From: Streptomyces vietnamensis
Lineage (GTDB): Bacteria; Actinomycetota; Actinomycetes; Streptomycetales; Streptomycetaceae
NCBI RefSeq assembly: GCF_000830005.1
Contig: NZ_CP010407.1
Coordinates: 5,088,001-5,152,000, forward strand
DNA length: 64,000 nt
Reading direction: 5' to 3'
A program made the position numbers and the translations under genes. The notes under the pieces were generated by a model. The model saw only the letters and a program-made list of their open reading frames with translations, ran no database searches and was not told the DNA's origin. Shown piece after piece: positions 58,537-59,641 of this stretch (position 1 is the stretch's first letter; each line of letters starts with the position of its first letter).

Positions 58537-58950
58537 GAGGTCGGCACCGGTGTCAGGGCAGCGGCGGTGCCGAGCGGGGCGGCGCCGGGGGGTTGCGCCG
58601 CAGGGGGAGGGGATCAGGAGGGGATCGGGGGACGGGAGGACGGGGGGATCGGCCGGTTGCGGCCGACCCCGGGCGTCCCCGGGGCCGACCGCCCTTTCTG
58701 GGTGACCGGGCTGCTGTCCCCTGCTGTCCGGTCACACGCGCTGGTGCGAGGTCCCACGACGTACCGGAGAGGTACGCCACACGCCCCAGCGAAGCCACGC
58801 GTGGTTTCATTCGGGCCCGCCCCTGGCTGGCACGGACACCCGGACCAACGAAGCCCGGCCGGAGCCGGTCACGCGCCGTACGGGTGAGAGCGGGACCGAA
58901 CGGGGGTGCGGGAGCACACTCAGACGCGTCGCCCGAGGCACCGCCGTCCC

Positions 58951-59256
58951 TCAGATGCGGCCCCGGCACAGCTCCAGCATCGTCATCGCGAGCGCCGTGC
59001 CCGGCTTGCCCAGGGCGTCCCTGTAGTGGCCGAGGACCTCCATCTCGCGGGCCAGGTTCACCCGGCGGCCACCGGAGGAGATCCGGGCCTCCTGGATGAC
59101 GGCCGAGACGGCCATCCGCTCCTGGATGAGACCGATGATCCGGTCGTCGAGGGCGTCGATGCGCTCGCGGGCGTCGCCGATCAGCGTCGCCGCCTCGTCG
59201 GTGCGGGCGCCGGTCTGCTCGGTGATGGTCTTCGGGGTCATGGTCTTCGTGGTCAC
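58951..59256 (-). CDS. Chorismate mutase (AroQ type)
   Basis: 101 residues from GTG 59256 (GAGGAG 8 bases upstream). All-helical AroQ fold: IGDARERIDALDDRIIGLIQERMAVSAVIQEARISSGGRRVNLAREMEVLGHYRDALGKPGTALAMTMLELCRGRI. The pattern R-(x)n-D-x2-I-(x2)-L-(x)4-M and the later R-E-x2-V are in the expected places for the active site. It converts chorismate to prephenate for Phe and Tyr. No other shikimate genes are adjacent. Expression is probably controlled by the leader peptide and hairpin at 59323-59445. Confidence 0.9.
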   Translation of the reverse strand: MTTKTMTPKTITEQTGARTDEAATLIGDARERIDALDDRIIGLIQERMAVSAVIQEARISSGGRRVNLAREMEVLGHYRDALGKPGTALAMTMLELCRGRI

Positions 59257-59322
59257 GGCGGGGGCTCCTCGTGGTGTCGGGTCCTGGAGCCCCGGGGCGA
59301 CATCGCCCGGAGACAAGCAGAA

Positions 59323-59349
59323 CGCCCCGGGCCTTGTCGGCCCGGGGCG
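59323..59349 (-). terminator. Attenuator hairpin upstream of chorismate mutase
   Basis: On the minus strand CGCCCCGGGCC, loop GACAA, GGCCCGGGGCG: a perfect 11-bp GC stem followed by TTCTGCTTGTCT. It lies 24 bases after the leader-peptide stop. GACAAGC just before it and GCTTGTC just after it can close an outer stem, and CGGCCC inside the leader frame can pair with GGGCCG of the first arm as an antiterminator. Confidence 0.72.
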
Positions 59350-59373
59350 CCTGGGAAGTCGCTTGTCAGTTGC

Positions 59374-59445
59374 TCAAGCAGCACGACCATGGCAGCCGGT
59401 GGGCCGGTTGCCATAGGTAAAGACGAAGGTCGAGTACTTGCGCAT
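59374..59445 (-). CDS. Aromatic-rich leader peptide of chorismate mutase
   Basis: 23 residues, ATG to TGA. It starts MRKYSTFVFTYGNRPT and ends GCHGRAA. Four of residues 4-11 are Tyr or Phe, coded TAC, TTC, TTT and TAT; TTT and TAT are very rare codons in this genome. A -10 like TACTGT (59455-59450) lies five bases before the ATG, so the transcript may be leaderless. Position before a terminator hairpin and a Phe/Tyr pathway gene fits classic ribosome-mediated attenuation. Confidence 0.7.
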   Translation of the reverse strand: MRKYSTFVFTYGNRPTGCHGRAA

Positions 59446-59526
59446 GGCGACAGTATGGACCCCTCCGCGCACCCCGGGACAACCCGGGTTCGGATGGTGA
59501 GACGAAAAGCGACACCGGCGCGCCGG

Positions 59527-59641
59527 TAGAATCGACAAATAGCCCCCCTTTCGGGGGACCCCAGGGAACCTCCGAGGAAGCTCCGAGGAACCCCCCAGGG
59601 AACCCCGAGGGAACCTCTCCTACCGCCGGAAGGCCGCCGTA
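59527..59641 (+). promoter_or_regulatory. guaA promoter and leader
   Basis: TAGAAT (59527-59532) is a good -10; no clear -35 is seen. The leader contains a small CCCCC-TTTC-GGGGG hairpin (59544-59557) and degenerate repeats of CCAGGGAACC/CCGAGGAA up to 59620. I cannot assign a riboswitch class to it. Confidence 0.45.

Follow-up and report, generated by a model that had tools for sequence, protein, structure and literature searches.

A predicted leaderless Phe/Tyr leader-peptide attenuator upstream of the chorismate mutase gene in Streptomyces and other actinobacteria

An aroR leader upstream of aroF in Corynebacterium glutamicum was reportedly described by Neshat in 2014. Passages of PMC11802643 describe this AroR leader, which precedes aroF, as containing Phe-Tyr-Phe and acting through ribosome stalling, and describe the E. 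coli pheL-pheA attenuator as controlling a bifunctional chorismate mutase/prephenate dehydratase. An RNA-seq reannotation of Streptomyces lividans TK24 reports eight leader peptides, none of them for chorismate mutase in the accessible part of the source (PMC8079986). Cysteine-rich upstream frames of mycobacteria are presented in sections of PMC4633059 and PMC13236596 as short sensing frames with proposed attenuation; by term counts, the available text of these two papers, which deal with leaderless frames and attenuation in mycobacteria, makes no mention of chorismate. A 2005 survey, in the portion available, reported finding no conserved RNA structures upstream of Phe/Tyr operons in Actinobacteria (PMC1262725). 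The same portion cites work on S. coelicolor ilvB in which changes of leader codons were without effect, so the appearance of an attenuator is not proof of one. Among the papers accessible to our search we found no published description of an actinobacterial chorismate mutase attenuator, and an earlier description is possible.

The locus described here lies in a 64,000-nucleotide stretch of the Streptomyces vietnamensis chromosome (the window). On the minus strand, a −35-like element, a −10 element, a leader open reading frame (ORF), a hairpin, a Shine-Dalgarno sequence and a chorismate mutase gene follow one another in this order:

59477–59482, minus strand: weak −35-like element TTGTCC, recognized by sequence, 19 nt before the −10 element
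59452–59457, minus strand: −10 element CATACT, separated from the ATG by 6 nt
59374–59445, minus strand: predicted leaderless leader ORF MRKYSTFVFTYGNRPTGCHGRAA, 23 codons plus TGA (ATG at 59445, TGA at 59376–59374)
59419–59421, minus strand: predicted control codon Phe9, the rare codon TTT, kept across families
59413–59415, minus strand: predicted control codon Tyr11, TAT, the opening codon within segment 1, with a wobble base that pairs with segment 2
59404–59416, minus strand: attenuator segment 1 (C TATGGCAACCGG), from pairing analysis
59387–59399, minus strand: segment 2 (CCGGCTGCCATGG), partner of segment 1 or segment 3, from pairing analysis
59339–59365, minus strand: segment 3 (CAAGCGACTTCCCAGGCGCCCCGGGCC), 3′ arm of the predicted antiterminator and 5′ arm of the predicted terminator, from folding and covariation
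59318–59333, minus strand: segment 4 (GGCCCGGGGCGTTCTG), 3′ arm of the predicted terminator, from covariation
59286–59293, minus strand: GGGGCTCC, complementary in a fold to the Shine-Dalgarno region at 59270–59263, a possible but weak second layer
58951–59256, minus strand: chorismate mutase gene, the predicted target of control, with start codon GTG at 59256, from profile matches

We propose that this arrangement is a ribosome-mediated transcription attenuator that would sense charging of tRNA-Phe and tRNA-Tyr and control a single-domain chorismate mutase, and we give this reading a probability of about 0.86. The 23-codon frame on the strand of the gene and the perfect 11-bp hairpin reported by the first-pass annotation are both present. 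The hairpin (CGCCCCGGGCC/GGCCCGGGGCG) is terminator-like, its 11 perfect pairs become 15 when the CAGG/TTCTG extension is included, and the stretch has a folding energy of −33.1 kcal/mol. The enzyme matches NCBIfam NF005894 (120.1 bits; cut-off 73) as well as Pfam CM_2, and the neighbouring divergent gene, judged from its translation, is presumably GMP synthase. No Rfam, Pfam or NCBIfam match was obtained for the leader peptide, and no Rfam covariance model, T-box or other, reached its gathering score in the window; near the locus there were five Rfam matches far under cut-off, none of them to a bacterial leader family. Window positions 59550–59625, which separate the divergent promoters from the beginning of the plus-strand neighbour, contain short repeats rich in purines (GGGAACC, GAGGAA).

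The leader peptide contains four aromatic codons, Tyr4 (TAC), Phe7 (TTC), Phe9 (TTT) and Tyr11 (TAT). In 36 long window ORFs of high GC3, the ratio of TTT to TTC is 8:342 (8 of 350 Phe codons) and that of TAT to TAC is 9:312 (9 of 321 Tyr codons), so TTT and TAT are both rare. The initial description of the four aromatic codons as rare TTT and TAT thus holds for Phe9 and Tyr11 but not for Tyr4 and Phe7.

Like E. coli pheL-pheA, as outlined in passages of PMC11802643, the locus has a leader peptide through which the availability of charged tRNA-Phe is predicted to control a chorismate mutase gene; unlike pheL-pheA, it has a predicted leaderless frame, both Phe and Tyr codons, and a single-domain enzyme of the NF005894 family. 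It shares with C. glutamicum AroR, as far as that leader is covered by the same passages, an actinobacterial host, Phe/Tyr codons and, by prediction for the present locus, ribosome stalling, whereas AroR precedes a DAHP synthase gene and the present leader precedes chorismate mutase. The leaders trpL1, ilvL and leuL of S. lividans are likewise leaderless short frames before amino-acid genes, but they concern other amino acids and genes, and Table 4 of that source, in the part available, contains no Phe/Tyr or chorismate mutase leader (PMC8079986). The mycobacterial cysteine-rich frames differ in that their Cys codons lie at the frame end and in that they precede cysteine genes, according to the accessible sections of PMC4633059 and PMC13236596. 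In the S. vietnamensis genome itself, the 500 nt preceding the type II DAHP synthase match contained no short frame rich in aromatic codons. Two other genomes, probably of Corynebacterium, contain MRNWRFYF and MRMWRFYF frames with TTT and TAT codons (loci L383 and L384, family f4) about 350–400 nt ahead of a match to type I DAHP synthase. These are probably relatives of the AroR leader, and they are without the UAYGG hairpin design of the present leader.

Start sites were predicted at 245 loci from the −10 motif and the next start codon only, the reading frame being left unused. A start was detected at all but 13 loci, and 223 of 232 detected starts were in frame with the Tyr codon without intervening stops (91/93, 68/69, 28/29, 20/25 and 16/16 in the individual sets), compared with a chance expectation of one third for the frame alone. 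The spacing between the −10 element and the start was 6–7 nt in all 223 in-frame cases and 4–5 nt in the nine out-of-frame cases. A distance of 6–7 nt after the −10 element is expected when transcription begins at the start codon. From this spacing we infer that transcription starts at or next to the leader ATG. The first-pass annotation had proposed a leaderless frame because the −10 element adjoins the ATG, and retention of the 6–7 nt spacing in the aligned loci is consistent with that proposal. A leaderless start also agrees with the leaderless S. lividans leaders for other amino acids, to the extent that these are given in the available part of PMC8079986.

Of 86 Streptomyces loci examined, 84 have the motif CATA[CA]T in the promoter region of the leader. 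Between the terminator and the gene, the same 86 loci contained neither CATA[CA]T nor TANNNT, and 9.7 intervals with TANNNT were expected from shuffles. TANNNT occurs in just 34 of the 86 leader promoter regions and is therefore insensitive, so the missing internal promoter motif is suggestive and not decisive.

An enzyme match was obtained in 386 of 392 Streptomyces genomes. We read 100 Streptomyces loci, 70 of them from the listed stronger enzyme matches and 30 from genomes whose best match was weak. The DNA core was found upstream of chorismate mutase in 95 of these; L071, L087 and L100 are leader variants, L086 is a decayed leader that has lost the Phe near Tyr, and the sequence of L094 stops short of the leader region, which leaves 99 readable loci. 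Loss of the frame in close relatives had been named as evidence against the initial reading; the leader, with an aromatic codon two before Tyr or as a close variant, is kept in 98 of the 99. In a separate count, the core DNA pattern occurred in 238 of 246 Streptomyces genomes and the reversed pattern, used as a control, in 54 of 246; a few of the forward matches are coding hits with TTCACCTACGGC. Frame, −10 spacing and RNA pairings are all retained in the aligned loci. Codon 4 varies among Tyr, His, Leu, Gln, Phe and others and is therefore not a conserved sensor. Thus, conservation of the aromatic codons, which the first-pass annotation had put forward as a check, was observed for Phe9 and Tyr11 and mostly for Phe7 but not for Tyr4.

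In Streptomyces sp. sk2.1 the leader core occurs a second time as a truncated copy adjoining masked sequence (L166, 2641–2658, plus strand); this copy is on the opposite strand and without a terminator. Of 24 aligned Streptomyces loci, most show strong conservation of a convergent intergenic stretch downstream of chorismate mutase (window 58600–58900), which includes GTGACCGGACAGCAGGGGACAGCAGCCCGGTCACC and a long GC hairpin. This stretch is possibly a structured RNA; it gave no Rfam match at gathering score, and the fold z-score of 58660–58900 was −1.7.

Scanning 84,980 species genomes with a DNA pattern returned at least 120 stretches. Among the 120 listed, 108 are the leader and 12 are chance hits; the leaders among the matches listed are all in Streptomycetaceae-like records (including Streptacidiphilus, Actinacidiphila and Yinghuangia), three Catellatospora records and Actinoplanes italicus. 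Chorismate mutase lies 95–401 nt downstream in 102 of the 108 listed leaders, and the other six end before the gene region. Because the pattern requires TTTACCTATGGC, the full spread is not visible from it, and for other families the upstream regions of the best-scoring enzyme loci were inspected (family f37, 30 loci in 51 genomes; f46, 31 loci in 50 genomes; f4, 34 loci). At all 30 Micromonosporaceae-like f37 loci, with a degenerate core in L314, and at all 31 f46 loci, chorismate mutase is preceded by an aromatic leader. Within f4, such a leader is present at 15 of 17 loci of genus g4 and at one of 17 loci of the other genera; the remaining two and 16 loci, respectively, are without a recognizable leader. 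Related FYG leaders were seen at two of four f18 loci and at the single f48 locus, and the single f12 locus has a reduced leader. Matches to NF005894 exceeded the cut-off in 14 of 69 genomes of the class, so many families are without this type of enzyme.

The named loci are from Streptomyces, Streptacidiphilus, Actinacidiphila, Yinghuangia, Catellatospora and Actinoplanes, and the remaining family names are assigned by us. Family f37 is probably Micromonosporaceae, as its leaders are identical or nearly identical to those of Actinoplanes and Catellatospora; f46 we tentatively take to be Pseudonocardiaceae-like and g4 Mycobacterium-like. An assignment of f4 to Micromonosporaceae was dropped, and the idea that the leader is confined to streptomycetes was ruled out by the leaders in other actinobacterial families. 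Matches to TTYWCCTAYGGCWCCGG in six of 121 f4 genomes were excluded from the leader counts. A class-wide pattern search outside the family gave mostly TTCACCTACGGC-type hits, which we regarded as coding and left out of the evidence.

The codon two before Tyr is TTT in 163 of 165 Streptomycetaceae leaders; a pattern with TTT built in had located 70 of these leaders, and the remaining set gives 93 of 95. In the Micromonosporaceae-like leaders the count is 25 of 33, or 21 of 29, with six TAT, when four leaders found by the pattern are omitted. TTT was found in 30 of 30 f46 leaders and 16 of 17 f4 leaders, and Tyr-Gly is closely preceded by Phe in nearly all leaders. The conserved TTT lies outside hairpin 1:2, so pairing within this hairpin does not explain it. 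A tRNA with a GAA anticodon may decode this UUU slowly.

The 5′ arm of hairpin 1:2 starts one base ahead of the Tyr codon. Its eight outer pairs were scored in a non-redundant set of 98 sequences spanning several families; 93.8% of the cells were paired, compared with 82.1% in shuffles and 28–44% in shifted versions. Cells with double changes numbered 103, compared with 24.3 in shuffles (0/500), and the weaker measures were 4 versus 2.8 for pairs changed on both sides (17/500 shuffles) and 14 versus 13.0 for further pair types (163/500). The wobble base of the Tyr codon forms CG in 40, UA in 39, UG in 15 and other combinations in 4 of the 98 sequences, and the next variable pair is CG or GC. 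Within f37, a 1:2 pair is U-A in L295 and L302 and C-G in L299. As related sequences beat shuffles easily, the case for 1:2 leans more on the shifted control and on these within-family changes. The codings of real leaders are also more stable in 1:2 than random synonymous codings (median z −2.75 with 38 of 43 at p ≤ 0.05 in Streptomycetaceae; −1.71 with 11 of 22 in the Micromonosporaceae-like group; −3.5 with 19 of 20 in f46; −3.68 with 9 of 10 in f4). Hence the peptide sequence does not by itself account for 1:2, and this is clearest in the groups other than the Micromonosporaceae-like one.

Helices 2:3 and 3:4 were analysed in 63 Streptomycetaceae sequences. For 2:3, 88.8% of cells were paired versus 86.6% in shuffles (0/500) and 26–48% in shifted versions; there were 21 double-change cells versus 7.3 (0/500), 6 pairs changed on both sides versus 4.0 (49/500) and 19 further pair types versus 17.5 (112/500). 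For 3:4, the corresponding values were 97.4% paired, 26–64% in shifted versions, and 28 double-change cells versus 6.5 (0/500). Over five covariation measures, in which the derivation of the structures from the same, related sequences favours them in both controls, 3:4 was above shuffles in all, and 1:2 and 2:3 each had two that were not clearly above. Compensating changes, which the first-pass annotation had put forward as a check, are present in the hairpin arms, and 1:2, 2:3 and 3:4 covary above the shuffled and shifted controls, apart from those two measures for 1:2 and 2:3. In L047, L093, L096 and L097, one position in segment 2 is U, one in segment 3 is A and one in segment 4 is U; these linked changes preserve both mutually exclusive helices, 2:3 and 3:4.

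In folds with a stalled ribosome, 2:3 pairing overlapped the terminator arm at 156 of 164 Streptomycetaceae loci versus 106.8 with the upstream part shuffled. Corresponding values were 32 of 33 versus 21.8 in the Micromonosporaceae-like group, 24 of 30 versus 20.8 in f46, and 7 of 17 versus 12.3 in f4, the last below its control. In view of the shuffled controls, these folding-based counts carry little weight; outside Streptomycetaceae, where they exceed their controls by little or fall below them, the modelled helix 2:3 is not established. At least three T residues in the 10 nt 3′ of the hairpin were found at 140 of 164 Streptomycetaceae, 14 of 33 Micromonosporaceae-like, 11 of 30 f46 and 4 of 17 f4 loci by a crude terminator finder that at times picked the wrong hairpin in f4 and f46. 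The terminator hairpin is strong in Streptomycetaceae and the Micromonosporaceae-like group and weaker or misassigned in f4; the U-tract is short or absent in many loci.

The organization is that of an attenuator in that the leader contains codons for the product amino acids, 1:2 overlaps the control codons and, by covariation in the 63 Streptomycetaceae, 2:3 excludes 3:4. We regard sequence comparison as having established the frame with its start spacing, both 1:2 and 3:4, and, for Streptomycetaceae, 2:3 as well, and the codons, hairpin arms and −10 spacing support the leader-peptide attenuator suggested by the first-pass annotation. We predict the transcription start, translation, stalling, termination and direction of the response as follows. 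A ribosome would load straight onto the leaderless frame at the 5′ end of the transcript. When charging of Phe- or Tyr-tRNA is low, it would stall at Phe9 (UUU) or Tyr11, the putative sensors (Phe7 is mostly kept), and cover segment 1; 2:3 would then pair, the terminator would be blocked and chorismate mutase would be transcribed. When charging is good, the ribosome would reach the stop codon and mask the end of segment 2, and terminator 3:4 would form. With no ribosome, 1:2 and 3:4 would form and transcription would likewise stop. The downstream edge of a ribosome is about 12–13 nt away. At Phe9 or Tyr11 this edge would cover part or all of segment 1 and free segment 2 for segment 3. Tyr4 would be too far upstream to free segment 2, and with the ribosome halted there 1:2 could still form and termination would be favoured, in keeping with the lack of conservation of Tyr4.

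We considered whether the frame is instead an independent small gene whose 23-residue peptide has its own role, with the hairpin as its terminator and a separate promoter for chorismate mutase. The strongly conserved peptide core within Streptomyces and the strong hairpin directly 3′ of the stop codon would suit such a gene, but the conserved C-terminal half tracks hairpin 1:2 and differs by family (GCHGRAA, PAAVGRA, PAPVxA, AVPVV), and 2:3 pairing covaries. Moreover, chorismate mutase is downstream in all 102 listed leader loci that are long enough, barring the truncated second copy in L166, and the 86 terminator-gene intervals contain no −10-like motif, TANNNT being an insensitive one. We judge a small gene to be highly improbable. 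Arrest by the nascent peptide, in which an FTYG-type sequence would stall the ribosome in response to a free amino acid or another ligand and not to tRNA charging, could account for the Tyr-Gly with a nearby preceding Phe in nearly all leaders. Against such arrest, the N-terminal residues and the length vary widely, the conserved part tracks the RNA pairing, and the residue directly before Tyr is Thr, Tyr, Phe, Gly, Ser or Pro, which makes this explanation quite unlikely. Mainly translational control, with the leader governing sequestration of the Shine-Dalgarno sequence by GGGGCTCC, we hold to be of similarly low probability: the complementarity of GGGGCTCC and GGAGCCCC (−18.1 kcal/mol) speaks for it, but the Shine-Dalgarno sequence was paired in just 50 of 74 loci (minimum free energy folds with no shuffled control) and the terminator pairing is conserved far better. 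In these models sequestration could be a second layer of control.

For the attenuator sensing tRNA charging, we tentatively suggest, at slightly less than even odds, an ancient actinobacterial origin that predates the split of Streptomycetaceae, Micromonosporaceae and the Pseudonocardiaceae- and Mycobacterium-like families. The fixed rare UUU two before Tyr would be the sensor, slow wobble decoding of UUU would set its sensitivity, and the Tyr codon would act both as another sensor and as an element of the RNA switch. Leader-peptide attenuation is already known; what is unusual here is the breadth of families and how fixed the rare codon is. The predicted element would fill the Phe/Tyr gap in Actinobacteria, at the branch point that routes chorismate to Phe and Tyr. 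It would also offer a clean test bed for the coupling of leaderless translation to transcription in high-GC bacteria, and its conserved UUU would allow a direct test of how codon choice contributes to attenuation.
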